From IMG/VR virus record IMGVR_UViG_3300021957_000291, positions 1-24,596 of that record: 24,596 nt of DNA; one strand, 5' to 3'. Within the stretch, counting starts at the first letter, position 1, and the number at the start of each line of letters is the position of its first letter. The notes under the pieces are model-generated. The model made no database searches. It had not been told where the DNA came from and saw only the letters and a program-made list of their open reading frames with translations. Of this stretch, positions 10,198 to 15,876 are shown one piece after another. The position numbers were made by a program, and so were the translations under genes. This DNA comes from a virus.

Positions 10198-10441
10198 TAT
10201 TGAAGCTAATTATACTCAACAAACTTGGCAAGCTGGTGTAACACCACTTAGTGAAGCTGCATTAAATAATATTGATGCGGGTATAGAAGATGTTAAGAAG
10301 TATGGTTTTTTCAAAAATGGAACTACTATAAATAGCAACATAACCTTACCAAATGATGGTTATAATTATTCGGTAGTAGGAGATGTTGATATAGCGGACA
10401 CTAACACTTTAGCAGTAGAAGGAAAATGTAAAATATTATGA
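10190..10441 (+). CDS. Small fibre-attachment protein
   Basis: 83 aa with a TTG start at 10190 preceded by GAGAGGA. The N-terminal WQAGVTPLSEAALNNIDAGI block is a common N-terminal piece of phage fibres and baseplate accessories that forms a short helix for trimer assembly. The rest is a short beta segment. It overlaps both neighbours (8 nt upstream, ATGA with the next gene). It may be the N-terminal part of a fibre that is split into several genes. Confidence 0.55.
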   Translation: MANIEANYTQQTWQAGVTPLSEAALNNIDAGIEDVKKYGFFKNGTTINSNITLPNDGYNYSVVGDVDIADTNTLAVEGKCKIL

Positions 10442-11307
10442 GTGAATTACAAGTTGACCAAATAGCAGGTTCGACAGGTACTACAGTTACCATAAAAACT
10501 GGACACACACTTACCTTAGTGGAAGATTTAAACGCAGGTTCTGCAAAGATTACAAACTTAGCTGAACCAACTGCAAGCGGAGATGCTGCAACAAAAAATT
10601 ATGTTGACACACAATTATTAACCTTAGATACCATATCAGAATTAACAGATGTAACAATTACTTCAGTAGCAGACAATGAAGTTTTAGCTTACGATTCAAC
10701 AAGTTCAGAATGGATTAACCAAACTGCAAGCGAAGCAGGTTTAGCAACTTCTGGAGATTTAACTTCTCATACTTCAGATACTTCTAACCCACATAGCGTG
10801 ACCGCGACACAACTTGGCGCAATAGAAAGTTCTAGCATACAAGATGATGACACTTTTTCATCTGCTAGTGCAACAGATATAGCTTCATCTGAAAGTATAA
10901 AAGCTTATGTAGATACACAAGTTGCAACAAAGGATGATTTATCAGAATTATCTGGAACAACAGATGATATTACACAAGGTTCTACGAATCTTTATTACTC
11001 TTCATCTTTATTTGATACAGATTTAGGTACTAAGACAACAGATAACTTAACAGAGGGTTCTACAAATCTTTATTATGCAGATTCGTTAGTAGAATCATAC
11101 TTATCTGGTGGCAATGGTATTTCTTACAGTTCTGGCGCTATCGAAGTTGACATTAATGGCGCAACAGATGGTACTTCAATCACAGTTGATGTAGCTGCTG
11201 ATGAATTGTTAGTTTATGATACCGATGCAACCGCAGTTAAAAGAGTAAAGGTAAGTCAAGTATCAGTACCAGCAGACATACATCCATTTTTATTAATTGG
11301 CGCATAA
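10438..11307 (+). CDS. Tail fibre protein
   Basis: 289 aa, low complexity, rich in S, T, D and A. Visible fibre motifs: DAATKNYVDTQ (about 50-58, echoed later as IKAYVDTQ), HTSDTSNPHSVTATQLGA (about 109-126, the widespread NPH-x-VT-x-x-Q-x-G collar repeat), and two copies of GSTNLYY (from DNA near 10978 and 11057) with almost identical DNA. These repeats form trimeric beta-helical shafts. It is coupled by ATGA to the small protein before it. It ends IHPFLLIGA, probably an interface with the next protein. Likely a receptor-binding fibre shaft. Confidence 0.75.
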   Translation: MSELQVDQIAGSTGTTVTIKTGHTLTLVEDLNAGSAKITNLAEPTASGDAATKNYVDTQLLTLDTISELTDVTITSVADNEVLAYDSTSSEWINQTASEAGLATSGDLTSHTSDTSNPHSVTATQLGAIESSSIQDDDTFSSASATDIASSESIKAYVDTQVATKDDLSELSGTTDDITQGSTNLYYSSSLFDTDLGTKTTDNLTEGSTNLYYADSLVESYLSGGNGISYSSGAIEVDINGATDGTSITVDVAADELLVYDTDATAVKRVKVSQVSVPADIHPFLLIGA

Positions 11308-11662: not shown

Positions 11663-12595
11663 ATGGGTATTAAGTCTATCAGTAATGGTGGTTTATCAGG
11701 GTATAAATCTTCTAATGTGTCAAAAACCCAAGAAGTGCCTGCAAATATATACGAATTAGATTATATAGTTCTTGCAGGTGGCGGCGGCGGTGGTGGCGGT
11801 AAAAACCATCCCGGTTGGGGGGGTCACGCAGGCGCAGGTGGTGGTTCAGGTGGACTTATTAAAGGATTTGGCGAAATATTTGTTTTAGGCACAAACTATG
11901 CTGTTTCAATTGGTGGTGGTGGTAATGGTGGCGGCGCAGGTGGCGGCGCACAAGCTAATAATGGCGCTTCAGGTACAAACACAACTTTAGTCTACAAAGA
12001 TGGCACACACACTGCTATAGGTGGTGGATATGGTTCTTCAGGTTCATATAACTATGAGGGCAATTCTGCTAATGGTGGTAATGGTGGTTCAGGTGGTGGT
12101 GGTGGGTCACGATTTAACACTTACTACAATTACAATGCAGCTGGCGCAGGTGGTTCAGGAACAGCAGGTCAAGGTCAAGATGGCGCTTATGGTGTACAAA
12201 GACAAGCCGCAAATGGTGGTGGGGGTGGTGGTTTTACTAACGCAGGTAAAACTAATTATTCGCCAAATACCACACCAAGTGCGTCAGGTCAGGGTCACGC
12301 AGGTGGAACAGGTTTAGATTGGTCTAACCACCCACAATTTGAATATGCTTTTGGTGGTGCGGCGGGGGGTGCAACAGCAGGCAGTGCAAACACAGGTCAA
12401 GCAGGTCGAGGTGGTAATGCAAATGGCGCAGGTGGCGCAGGTGGTTCAGGATTAGTTTATTTAAGGTTTAGAAATGAATTAACTATTACTGTCGGTGCAG
12501 GTTTATCAGCAAGTACCTTTATAAACACTGACAATGGTTGGACAGAAGTTTACATAACAGCAGGCAGTGATGACATATCATTTGCTTTAACGTAG
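11663..12595 (+). CDS. Glycine-rich adhesin-like tail protein
   Basis: 310 aa, roughly 35-40% glycine by eye between residues 38 and 265. Gly runs (an unbroken run of eight at ~39-46) alternate with short loops such as KNHPGW, GSYNYEG, RFNTYYNYN and TNYSPNTTP. The N-terminus (first 37 residues, with ELDYIVLAGG) and the C-terminus (LVYLRFRNELTITVGAG onward) are ordinary beta sequence. Glycine-rich bundles (polyglycine type II) with variable aromatic loops form the receptor-binding tips of some phage adhesins; the same reading fits here. The gene is preceded by AGGAG and follows the fibre genes. Confidence 0.65.
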   Translation: MGIKSISNGGLSGYKSSNVSKTQEVPANIYELDYIVLAGGGGGGGGKNHPGWGGHAGAGGGSGGLIKGFGEIFVLGTNYAVSIGGGGNGGGAGGGAQANNGASGTNTTLVYKDGTHTAIGGGYGSSGSYNYEGNSANGGNGGSGGGGGSRFNTYYNYNAAGAGGSGTAGQGQDGAYGVQRQAANGGGGGGFTNAGKTNYSPNTTPSASGQGHAGGTGLDWSNHPQFEYAFGGAAGGATAGSANTGQAGRGGNANGAGGAGGSGLVYLRFRNELTITVGAGLSASTFINTDNGWTEVYITAGSDDISFALT

Positions 12596-12604
12596 GTATA
12601 AATT

Positions 12605-13000
12605 ATGGCACATTACGCAATATTAAACGAACAGAACGAAGTAATAGAAGTTATTGTTGGTAAAGATGAAACTGATACAGAAACTTTACCTGATAATTTT
12701 AATAATTGGGAAGAATATTATTCAAATATAAAAAATAAAACTGTTAAAAGAACTTCATACAATACTAGAAATAACGAACATCTTAATGGTGGTACTGCAT
12801 TTAGAGGAAATTATGCACAAATAGGTGGTTCTTATGATAGTGAAAGTGATATATTTTACCCACCAAAACCATTTAGCAGTTTTGTAAAAGATGCAACTAT
12901 TGCTGATTGGGTAGGTTCAGTAGAAAAACCTGATGGCGATTATTGGTGGAATGAAGAAACAGAAGCATGGGAAGAATATCCTGCACCACCGACAGAATAA
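12605..13000 (+). CDS. Conserved marine-phage accessory virion protein
   Basis: 131 aa. The layout is one I associate with proteins common in marine phages: a start MAHYAILNEQNEVIEVIV, then KRTSYNTRNNEHLNGGTAFR, GNYAQIGGSYD, and FYPPKPFSSFV, ending with YWWNEETEAWEEYP. Its exact role is not known to me; proteins of this type usually lie among fibre and structural genes. It marks the end of the fibre cluster. No ribosome binding site better than GTAGG is visible. Confidence 0.6.
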   Translation: MAHYAILNEQNEVIEVIVGKDETDTETLPDNFNNWEEYYSNIKNKTVKRTSYNTRNNEHLNGGTAFRGNYAQIGGSYDSESDIFYPPKPFSSFVKDATIADWVGSVEKPDGDYWWNEETEAWEEYPAPPTE

Positions 13001-13023: not shown

Positions 13024-13764
13024 ATGAACATAACAGTCATTCCAAAAAATAAAAAATACGAAAAACTTTTAGAATTATATCCACCTGTATTATCTAATCA
13101 ATTATTACCTAAGTGGTATAAAAACTTCCCTAAATCAAATGAACTTAACACATTAATTAATTCAGTCACTAGCGTAGATAACTCTTTTGGCGCAAAACAA
13201 TGCCCTGCTATTCAAGACACTTTAGTAAGTGGGATAATTATACCAATGTGGTCTGATTTTGCTTTTAAAACTATTTATGAAAATAATATTGCTGTACAAC
13301 AAGTTTGGAAGTACAGTCTTGCAGAAGCTTTAGACGATAAGATTACAGAACATATAGGTCAACACAACATACCACAAACTTATGGTATGGATATTAAAAG
13401 AACTTTAAATAATTTAACATTAAAGTTTCATTACCCTTTTAAAATAATTGCACCTAATGGTTATAGTATATTTTTTACTGACCCTTTTTACCACTTTAGA
13501 GATGACATAAGGTGTTTGAATGGCATTGTTGAAATAGATAAACATGGTGTATTTGAGTTCCCATTTTCAATAGAAAAAGAAGAATTTTTAATTAAGGCAG
13601 GAACGCCTTTAATACATGGTTTAATTTACAAAAGGTCAGATAATATACAAATTAAAACAAGAATTGGCACACAAAAAGAGTATCAACAAATTAATGACGA
13701 TATTTTCATAAACAATTTGATGAATATTAGTTATAAAAAAAGATGGGATTTGTTTAATGAGTAA
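13024..13764 (+). CDS. Paralogue A1 of a four-gene unknown family
   Basis: 246 aa. Blocks in order: YPPVLSNQLLPKWYKNFP (19-36), CPAIQD (60-65), SGIIIPMWSDF (69-79), TYGMD (119-123), FTDPFYHFRDDIRCLNGIVE (151-170) and IKAGTPLIHGLIYKR (190-204). The last blocks (TP-GY..., then I-K-x-G-T-P-...-Y-K-R) recall the ending of the DUF6065-type family, predicted beta-rich; I cannot give a function. It is most like the third gene of the set (14460). Preceded by TAAGGA, and overlapping the next gene by 8 nt. Proline is mostly CCT (8 of 13 by my count), unlike the tape measure gene (2 of 14). Confidence 0.7.
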   Translation: MNITVIPKNKKYEKLLELYPPVLSNQLLPKWYKNFPKSNELNTLINSVTSVDNSFGAKQCPAIQDTLVSGIIIPMWSDFAFKTIYENNIAVQQVWKYSLAEALDDKITEHIGQHNIPQTYGMDIKRTLNNLTLKFHYPFKIIAPNGYSIFFTDPFYHFRDDIRCLNGIVEIDKHGVFEFPFSIEKEEFLIKAGTPLIHGLIYKRSDNIQIKTRIGTQKEYQQINDDIFINNLMNISYKKRWDLFNE

Positions 13765-14470
13765 CATAGTTTTTGGAACTTACAACGATATTCTATTTAA
13801 CGAAAAAAGTTTAATGCCACAACCTTTAAAAAATTTTATACCTGATTGGTACAAAAACATTACATTTGAAGAAGATAACAATAGTAATTTTAATTATATA
13901 AAATATTTAAAAAATGTTAAAAGTTGCCCAAGTTTTATTGATATTTTTAAATTCGGATATGTTATTCCTGCACCTGTTGATTACTTAATAAAAGTTAATA
14001 GTGACAATACTTACGAATGGAATACACCAATGGTTTTTGAAACTGAACATGGTTTACCTGCTATTCAAGACCATAATGATTTGCAATTAATTAAACATTT
14101 ACCAAATAATGAATTTAAAATGGTACTAAAGATTAATTTGCCTTTAAAAGTATTTACACCAAAAGGTTATTCCTGTTATCAATTACCAACACCTTATACT
14201 TATAACGAATATTGGGAAAGTGCTTTTGGTATGTTAAGAACAGACAAGTTACACCCTGTTAATATACAAATATTAATAAAAAATTATGGCGAATTTATAA
14301 TTAAACAAGGAACACCTTTAGCTGTTTATTTGCCTTACAAAAGAGATAATTTAAAATTAAAATATGTAAACTTAAAAGAAAACAAAAAATTTAGAATATT
14401 AGATAGAAGTAAATATTTAAAACAATATGGCACATTTAAAAATGGAATAAAAAATTATTATGAAGATTAA
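13757..14470 (+). CDS. Paralogue B1 of the four-gene unknown family
   Basis: 237 aa. Shares the family frame with its neighbours: IPDWYKN (28-34), CPSFIDIFKFGYVIPAPVDY (57-76), TPKGYSCYQLPTP (134-146) and IKQGTPLAVYLPYKRDN (182-198). It lacks the TDP-YHFR block of the A type and has PTPYTYNEYW in its place, and it has the HGLPAIQD segment in the middle. It is closest to the fourth gene (15172). Overlaps both neighbours (8 and 11 nt), so it is probably made in fixed ratio with them. Function unknown; virion, assembly or host-modifying roles are all open. Confidence 0.68.
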   Translation: MSNIVFGTYNDILFNEKSLMPQPLKNFIPDWYKNITFEEDNNSNFNYIKYLKNVKSCPSFIDIFKFGYVIPAPVDYLIKVNSDNTYEWNTPMVFETEHGLPAIQDHNDLQLIKHLPNNEFKMVLKINLPLKVFTPKGYSCYQLPTPYTYNEYWESAFGMLRTDKLHPVNIQILIKNYGEFIIKQGTPLAVYLPYKRDNLKLKYVNLKENKKFRILDRSKYLKQYGTFKNGIKNYYED

Positions 14471-15185
14471 AGTTAGACCTTTAAGAAAAGAATATGAAAA
14501 ATTTTTAGAATTATATCCACCTATTGTTGCTAACAAAGCACTACCTGAATGGTATAAAAAAATGAAAATAGGCACTCATTATGGTTCGTTTTCAGGTGAA
14601 AGTATATTAACTGCTAAAAATTGTCCTGCTATTCAAGATATTGTTACAACAGGGTTTATTATACCAATTTGGGCAAACTTTTATTTTCAAACTGAATATA
14701 CAGAAGATGGCACAAAAATATTACAAAAATGGGATATAACATCAAGAATACAAGAAAATGACGCAGTTACAGAGTTTGTAAATAAACATGGTATTGAACA
14801 GACTTATGGAATGGATTTAGGTAAAAACGTTAATAATGATGTTTTAAAAATGAAATTGCCTTATTATTTTGACATACCTGATGGGTATAACATACTTTAT
14901 ACCGACCCTTACTACCATTTTAGAAAAGATATTAGATGTTTAAGTGGAATTGTTGAGGGTGACAAATGGGGTTACATTCAATTAGTGTTTGAAGTATTAA
15001 AAGATAATTTTGAAATTAAAGCAGGCATGCCTTTAGTACACGCTTTAATTTATAAAAGAGAAGATGAAAAATTAATATTAGATATACAAAAAGGCACAGA
15101 AGAAGAATATAATAAAGTAAGAGATGATTTTGTAGAATTATTTACAACTAGAAAAACATATAAAACTAAAAATGAAAAAAATTAA
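14460..15185 (+). CDS. Paralogue A2 of the four-gene unknown family
   Basis: 241 aa, plainly a duplicate of the 13024 gene: ELYPPIVANKALPEWYKKM (17-35) matches its start, CPAIQD (55-60), GFIIPIWANF (65-74), TYGMD (115-119), YTDPYYHFRKDIRCLSGIVE (147-166) and IKAGMPLVHALIYKR (186-200). The invariant YHFR-DIRCL core suggests a conserved active or binding surface with H153, R155 and C160. Start overlaps the preceding gene by 11 nt, and the end overlaps the next gene by 14 nt. 8 of 10 proline codons are CCT. Confidence 0.7.
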   Translation: MKIKVRPLRKEYEKFLELYPPIVANKALPEWYKKMKIGTHYGSFSGESILTAKNCPAIQDIVTTGFIIPIWANFYFQTEYTEDGTKILQKWDITSRIQENDAVTEFVNKHGIEQTYGMDLGKNVNNDVLKMKLPYYFDIPDGYNILYTDPYYHFRKDIRCLSGIVEGDKWGYIQLVFEVLKDNFEIKAGMPLVHALIYKREDEKLILDIQKGTEEEYNKVRDDFVELFTTRKTYKTKNEKN

Positions 15186-15876
15186 ATTTAACGCTATAGG
15201 TAAATACGCTTTTAAAATACAAGATAAACCTGTATCTGCAAAAGATAAATTACCTGAATGGTTTAAAAAATCACCTATGTTTTATCCTGAAAAAAATTTG
15301 AAAATAGGTAATGGTGCTTTAACTAATCAAACTTTTAGAAAATGTGTACCTATGTTAGATGCTTTTAGTATTGGTTATGTTGTAGAACTTGAAGCAGATA
15401 TAAACGTTGAAGAAATGAACGAAAAAGAATTTAATTTAACTTGGAAAATGGATAATGATTTATTTGAATTACATGGTAACACTACTCATTTAATGGAAAC
15501 ACCAAGTGGTTATTATGAACAAGTAATTAAATATAATTGGTTAGTTGTTCCTGAAACACCAAAAGGTTACTCTTTATTAGTTATACCTGCTTTAGCTTAT
15601 CCTGACAACGTTTTTCAAGCTGTACCTGCTGTTATTGATAGTGACGAATATTTATTTAATTTTTCATTACCTGTATGGTTAAAAAAAGGTTTCACAGGCA
15701 TAGTAGAAAAAGGAACACCTATAGCGCAGATAATACCTTTTAAAAGAGATAATTGGGAAAGTAGTTATAACATGATAGATGATTACGAATACAAATTACA
15801 TCAACAAAAATCACACAATACAACAATAGTAAATAATTATTTTAAATATTTTTGGAAACGTAAGAAGTTTAAATAA
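15172..15876 (+). CDS. Paralogue B2 of the four-gene unknown family
   Basis: 234 aa, the most diverged copy. Blocks: KLPEWFKKSP (26-35), CVPMLDAFSIGYVVELEADI (58-77), YNWLVVPETPKGYSLLVIPA (121-140), VIDSDEYLFNFSLPVW (154-169) and IVEKGTPIAQIIPFKRDNW (177-195). This gene shows best the W...TP-GYSLLV...D-D...F...I-x-K-G-T-P-I-x-Q-x-(I/V)-P-x-x-R pattern that I link with DUF6065-like proteins. The KGTPIAQ piece also echoes the dUTPase KGDRIAQ strand, but the other dUTPase motifs are missing. 12 of 14 proline codons are CCT. Last gene of the set; a new promoter follows. Confidence 0.68.
   Translation: MKKIKFNAIGKYAFKIQDKPVSAKDKLPEWFKKSPMFYPEKNLKIGNGALTNQTFRKCVPMLDAFSIGYVVELEADINVEEMNEKEFNLTWKMDNDLFELHGNTTHLMETPSGYYEQVIKYNWLVVPETPKGYSLLVIPALAYPDNVFQAVPAVIDSDEYLFNFSLPVWLKKGFTGIVEKGTPIAQIIPFKRDNWESSYNMIDDYEYKLHQQKSHNTTIVNNYFKYFWKRKKFK

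Follow-up and report, generated by a model that had tools for sequence, protein, structure and literature searches.

The four-gene array and its setting

How did four similar genes come to stand in tandem in this phage, and what might their products do together? The window, by which we mean the whole stretch of 24,596 nucleotides analysed, is part of a siphophage-like contig, and a second IMG/VR record, IMGVR_UViG_3300021958_000009 (38,217 bases), spans it at a DNA identity of 98.9-100%. Its gene order runs from head and connectors through tail tube, tape measure, tail genes and a tail-fibre-like gene to a phrog_1276 protein, a glycine-rich protein and a phrog_7759 protein. The array (genes 1 to 4) comes next, directly behind this tail adhesin module, and is followed by an amidase, with replication genes further on. 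The features that matter here are:

10438..11307, plus strand, tail-fibre-like protein (weak PHROG tail fibre matches)
11663..12595, plus strand, glycine-rich protein, adhesin-like (PF21722)
12605..13000, plus strand, phrog_7759 protein, the conserved immediate upstream neighbour of the array
13024..13764, plus strand, gene 1, 246 aa, divergent phrog_7084 paralogue, nearest to gene 3
13757..14470, plus strand, gene 2, 237 aa, divergent phrog_7084 paralogue
14460..15185, plus strand, gene 3, 241 aa, divergent phrog_7084 paralogue
15172..15876, plus strand, gene 4, 234 aa, canonical DUF6065-like phrog_7084 member

Within the array the reading frames overlap by 8, 11 and 14 nt, in that order, which suggests translational coupling of genes 1 to 4. 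In this phage group the phrog_7759 protein is a fixed neighbour between the glycine-rich adhesin-like gene and the DUF6065-like array.

The four genes belong to one widespread family

All-against-all BLASTP placed genes 1 and 3 closest (45% identity, E ~2e-71), followed by genes 1 and 2 (30%, E 1e-14), 2 and 4 (25%, E 1e-14), 2 and 3 (26%, E 2e-9), 1 and 4 (19%, E 5e-7) and 3 and 4 (20%, E 3e-6). Since all six pairs reached significance and each of the four proteins matched phrog_7084 (PHROGs v4) near full length (E 6e-40, 2e-48, 1.3e-40 and 7.6e-36 for genes 1 to 4), their homology is far above chance and they are true paralogues, as had been proposed from their shared motifs. The motifs listed in that proposal are present, with small departures such as IPDWYK in gene 2 and GIIIP in gene 1. 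The matched family itself has no described function in PHROGs v4.

The original prediction had also pointed to a resemblance to DUF6065, which proved a good lead. Gene 4 aligns across 218 aa with the DUF6065 protein WP_121593567.1 of Agrobacterium tumefaciens at 29% identity, with identical conserved residues, and reaches bacterial DUF6065 proteins by tblastn at E 4e-22. A profile built from six bacterial DUF6065 proteins likewise matched gene 4 (E 4e-29) and genes 1-3 (E 2e-10 to 3e-13). In Pfam, PF19541 (DUF6065) scored 16.4 bits for gene 1, 18.5 for gene 3 and 20.9 for gene 4, with no match for gene 2; because these scores lie under the gathering threshold of 26.6 bits, the window genes are DUF6065-like and not DUF6065 members by Pfam's rule. 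Across the wider family, PF19541 was matched by 47 of 123 members (best E 1.3e-55). A match of three relatives to EutQ was judged to be noise or a remote beta-barrel similarity, NCBIfam gave no match, and the literature searched held nothing on DUF6065 or phrog_7084.

Scans of viral contigs returned about 240 family hits at about 100 loci, many of them the same records repeated; removal of near-identical copies left 124 proteins at 62 loci, the window included. The longest tandem run was one copy at 28 of these loci, two at 25, three at seven and four, the maximum, at two, so that 34 of 62 carry tandem copies. Runs of four occur in the window and in relatives represented by L022, whose array has about 70% DNA identity to that of the window. 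Haloarchaeal tailed viruses and T4-like cyanophages also carry a family copy, and DUF6065 genes occur on chromosomes or plasmids of Rhizobiales and other bacteria without surrounding phage genes; a scan of genome contigs with gene 4 found no relative. DUF6065/phrog_7084 is a widespread, uncharacterised family of marine phages, haloarchaeal viruses and Alphaproteobacteria. A distant sister subfamily (six rows, 100% support; L031, L032, L036, L041, L062 and L086) lacks W30, carries the signature YCPIGF/PPR and lies close to ordinary members within the same phages.

The array did not arise from a single pair duplication

Trees were built from 124 rows and, more carefully, from 45. In both, each window gene pairs with its counterpart in L022, which makes the array older than the split between the two phages and agrees with the earlier claim that the array is maintained. 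Divergence between the window and L022 amounted to dN 0.21-0.29 and dS 1.3-2.0, the latter near saturation; the array genes are under purifying selection.

The alternating order of the genes had been explained by duplication of an A-B pair to give A-B-A'-B', both types being kept as partners in a complex. The close relationship of genes 1 and 3 fits this account, since the AU test did not reject a clade of the two with their L022 counterparts (p = 0.30; L044 perhaps branches between them), as does conservation of the array in L022. The corresponding clade of genes 2 and 4, however, was rejected (AU p = 1.8e-5). Genes 1, 2 and 3 all lie inside one divergent clade of 15 rows (support 99/99), where gene 2 is joined to genes 1 and 3 and to copies from L030 and L038, whereas gene 4 lies inside a separate clade of 13 rows (support 100/100); the four do not split into A and B clades, a pattern that the original prediction had itself named as contrary to it. 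Nor do the motifs TPKGYS and PFKRDN mark genes 2 and 4, as had been thought: TPKGYS and P(Y/F)KRDN occur as consensus throughout the family and are hence ancestral, providing no evidence for a "B" type. Related phages have other layouts as well, and we regard duplication of an A-B pair as very improbable.

These layouts include a canonical gene-4-type copy standing alone within the stretch examined (L033, L042), a gene-4 type followed by an A type (L034, L044) and two divergent copies followed by a gene-4 type (L030, L038). A canonical copy accompanies the divergent copies at six of the seven loci of the divergent clade; at the seventh, L004, three divergent copies were found and a canonical copy was not seen in the stretch examined. 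To judge from the tree, the varied layouts and the family-wide consensus motifs, the array appears to have grown by several rounds of duplication and divergence centred on a canonical gene, and its order would be better written A1-C-A2-B, with genes 1-3 from one divergent clade and gene 4 from another. The products of the four genes are possible partners in one complex.

A predicted dUTPase-like fold with a reshaped site

AlphaFold2 models, made from alignments of the window proteins and those of the fetched loci, reached a pLDDT of 95.6 for gene 4 and 88.5 for gene 3. Searched with Foldseek against the PDB, both models had dUTPases or dCTP deaminases as all of their top 50 matches (best E 3e-4 and 1e-3), at modest TM-scores (0.24-0.41 query-normalised, up to 0.69 target-normalised); those of gene 4 include two chains of 6h4c, a dUTPase-type complex entry. 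A library of viral structures returned uncharacterised phage proteins of the same family first and dUTPases next. Sequence profiles gave independent but weak agreement. Six of eight weak hits of the family profile to PDB sequences were dUTPases (E 0.2-2.5), the best five among them (E 0.2-0.4), and a profile-profile comparison with 18 dUTPases gave E 4e-4, against 0.11 for the reversed control, over motifs II-IV. The two sequence comparisons agree in placing the segment GIVDTD...GTPxxQ on dUTPase motifs III-IV. Given the uniform top 50 PDB matches, a dUTPase-like (beta-clip) fold is well supported as the predicted fold of the phrog_7084/DUF6065-like family, with genes 1 and 2 assigned by homology.

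The family also differs from trimeric dUTPases (PF00692) and dCTP deaminases. It has an added N-terminal segment, LPxWYK...KxCxPxxD; the R-S of motif II is absent in the profile-profile alignment, and the C-terminal motif V (Gly-rich, GFGS) is absent from the sequences of genes 1-4. In the Pfam scan PF00692 matched none of the four window proteins and one of 123 relatives (E 0.0063). Together, motifs and Pfam rule out an ordinary dUTPase. In what is a remote alignment, the motif III catalytic residue Asp90 of E. coli dUTPase corresponds to Asp156 of gene 4; at the aligned position genes 1 and 3 both have Glu, and gene 2 has Arg.

Residue conservation was counted over a set of 138 sequences, drawn from phages, haloarchaeal viruses and bacteria, with the numbering of gene 4. 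Cys58 and Gly68 are invariant (138/138), and Lys56, Asp63, Ser134, Asp158, Gln186, Lys191 and Arg192 are each present in 84-93%. Gene 4 retains Cys58, Asp63, Ser134, Asp156, Asp158, Gln186, Lys191 and Arg192, whereas position 186 is His in gene 1 and Val in gene 2. Asp156 and Gln186 occur together in none of the 15 rows of the divergent clade of genes 1-3 but in 103 of 123 elsewhere, and Pro60 in none of the 15 against 114 of 123. As the 15 rows form a single clade, these losses amount to a single evolutionary change, with drift thereafter. By sequence, the family appears to carry an incomplete dUTPase-like catalytic set. In the literature searched we found neither the assignment of the family to a dUTPase-like fold, nor its residue signature, nor the layout of one canonical plus divergent copies; together they supply concrete residues and partners for experiments.

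A role in nucleotide metabolism or sensing, as relatives of dUTPase and dCTP deaminase, would fit the predicted fold; copies in haloviruses and S-RIM4 adjoin ribonucleotide reductase or thymidylate synthase, and the S-CREM1 copy is annotated as a triphosphate nucleotidohydrolase. We consider it improbable for the array, as motif V is missing, motif II lacks a conserved RS, the residue aligned with the catalytic Asp of motif III is Glu, Arg and Glu in genes 1-3, HF2 has a separate Dcd and most relatives sit among tail or modification genes. The degenerate catalytic positions of genes 1-3 would be in keeping with regulators or anti-host proteins on a dUTPase-like trimer scaffold, comparable to staphylococcal phage dUTPases with the Stl repressor; two reports describe such moonlighting for trimeric phage dUTPases (PMC5593958, PMC4914113). 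That role too is unlikely, with the array in the tail-to-lysis region rather than in an early or regulatory block and no partner gene seen.

Family members recur beside fibre and modification genes

The Pfam families met most often upstream of family members were Gly_rich_2 (PF21722, the most frequent), tail collar, carbamoyltransferase, 2OG-Fe(II) oxygenase and collagen, and a PHROGs scan of the upstream set gave many tail fibre and collar families. Downstream, 2OG-Fe(II) oxygenases, GlcNAc glycosyltransferases and other glycosyltransferases were commonest. Compared with 374 of 797 ORFs overall, the genes lying less than 2 kb from a family member were 31 of 40 for 2OG-Fe(II) oxygenases, 9 of 13 for GlcNAc transferases, 5 of 5 for Trp halogenases, 9 of 10 for phrog_7759 copies and 21 of 24 for one further neighbour cluster, all as raw counts uncorrected for relatedness among the phages. 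Within the window, no oxygenase, halogenase or glycosyltransferase lies near the array.

In four cyanophages a family copy directly follows Trp halogenases and shortly precedes runs of 2OG oxygenases; in three of the four the halogenases themselves come after tail-fibre-assembly genes. Kyanoviridae copies (for example Syn9 gp43 and S-CREM1 gp70) are homologous to the window genes, and those beside Trp halogenases keep Cys58, Gly68, Asp156 and Gln186; they differ in being single, in adjoining Trp halogenases and 2OG oxygenases, and in not keeping Asp158 or Trp30. In cyanophages L110, L113, L114 and L115, islands near tail genes combine a phrog_7084-like protein with several 2OG-Fe(II) oxygenases and one or two Trp halogenases, and have the look of loci dedicated to modifying proteins or fibres; that of S-CREM1 also has a collagen-like protein. 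That hydroxylases, halogenases and glycosyltransferases recur in the company of fibre genes suggests that phages modify their own tail fibres, an activity for which few enzymes have been characterised.

The tail link is not universal, given the halovirus and S-RIM4 contexts and the bacterial DUF6065 genes, which unlike the window genes stood outside tail contexts in the regions viewed. Automatic clustering of bacterial neighbourhoods was spoiled by spurious ORFs in GC-rich DNA. A repeated DUF6065 layout occurs on Agrobacterium, Rhizobium and Shinella plasmids (L117, L118, L119, L121, L122): a divergent S8 serine peptidase, an RNA polymerase sigma factor, a hypothetical protein and then DUF6065, in five of six regions viewed. 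Beyond this layout the bacterial context was heterogeneous, and it gave no functional lead.

A tentative role in serving the tail adhesin

Unlike its family and fold, the function of the array has to be inferred. We tentatively favour a reading in which dUTPase-fold trimers serve the tail adhesin, with gene 4 as the competent subunit and genes 1-3 as its divergent partners. dUTPases are trimers with ligand sites at subunit contacts; by analogy of fold class, the array proteins would form trimers with sites at the same contacts, and the conserved residues may line the ligand site. Gene 4, which keeps Cys58, Asp63, Ser134, Asp156-x-Asp158, Gln186 and Lys191-Arg192, would be competent, while genes 1-3, having lost Asp156 and/or Gln186 together with Pro60, may serve as partners of a pseudo-enzyme kind or as specificity subunits, their synthesis matched through translational coupling of the overlapping genes. 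The substrate or ligand would most probably be a part of the tail fibre or adhesin, or its chemical decoration; this is proposed because members in unrelated phages follow fibre or adhesin genes amid modification genes (2OG-Fe(II) oxygenases, glycosyltransferases, carbamoyltransferases and Trp halogenases).

The main rival to this reading makes the proteins purely structural, at the tail tip: they would be virion components, such as trimeric beta-clip caps, tips or tail-fibre decoration proteins, multiplied and diversified to vary host recognition. The array directly follows the glycine-rich adhesin-like and phrog_7759 genes and precedes the lysis genes, copy number varies from one to four at this same spot among related phages, and a trimeric fold class would suit trimeric fibres. 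We hold a virion role to be almost as probable as the reading favoured above. Against it, Rhizobiales and other bacteria carry the gene without surrounding phage genes, and an invariant Cys and a set of polar residues, conserved from bacteria to archaeal viruses and phages, resemble a site rather than a fast-evolving adhesin. The HF2 homologue, moreover, is not among the virion proteins named in the HF2 record, where VP1 is a different gene; HF2 virions show four major bands, VP1-VP4, with which a minor virion protein is still compatible (PMC7230728). Virion proteomics of cyanophages has been published (PMC3037559; PMC9964418).

A more specific version of the adhesin-serving role can be envisaged, which we put forward as a speculation with rather little chance of holding in full: a complex whose core is a dUTPase-like trimer with a reshaped catalytic site, combining one competent subunit with three of pseudo-enzyme type, would chemically modify or finish the tail adhesin, and the same family would supply the tail-fibre modification islands of marine phages and another reaction in bacteria.

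Further features of the phage

At the left end of the window, positions 163-585 and the corresponding segment of the 38-kb contig (L230:8122-8544) encode small lytic-transglycosylase-like proteins that are clearly unlike, while the rest of the window is 99-100% identical to that contig, which suggests local recombination or strain variation at this gene. Beyond the window the contig carries, in the same phage, a 97-aa SET-domain protein (L230:9272-9562, minus strand; PF00856, E 1.3e-11); SET domains belong to the beta-clip class. It also encodes a minor capsid protein (PF06152) of 1298 aa (L230:13311-17204, minus strand), which has a long C-terminal part and a Zeta-toxin-like stretch (PF06414, E 2.3e-13), possibly a virion-carried effector domain.
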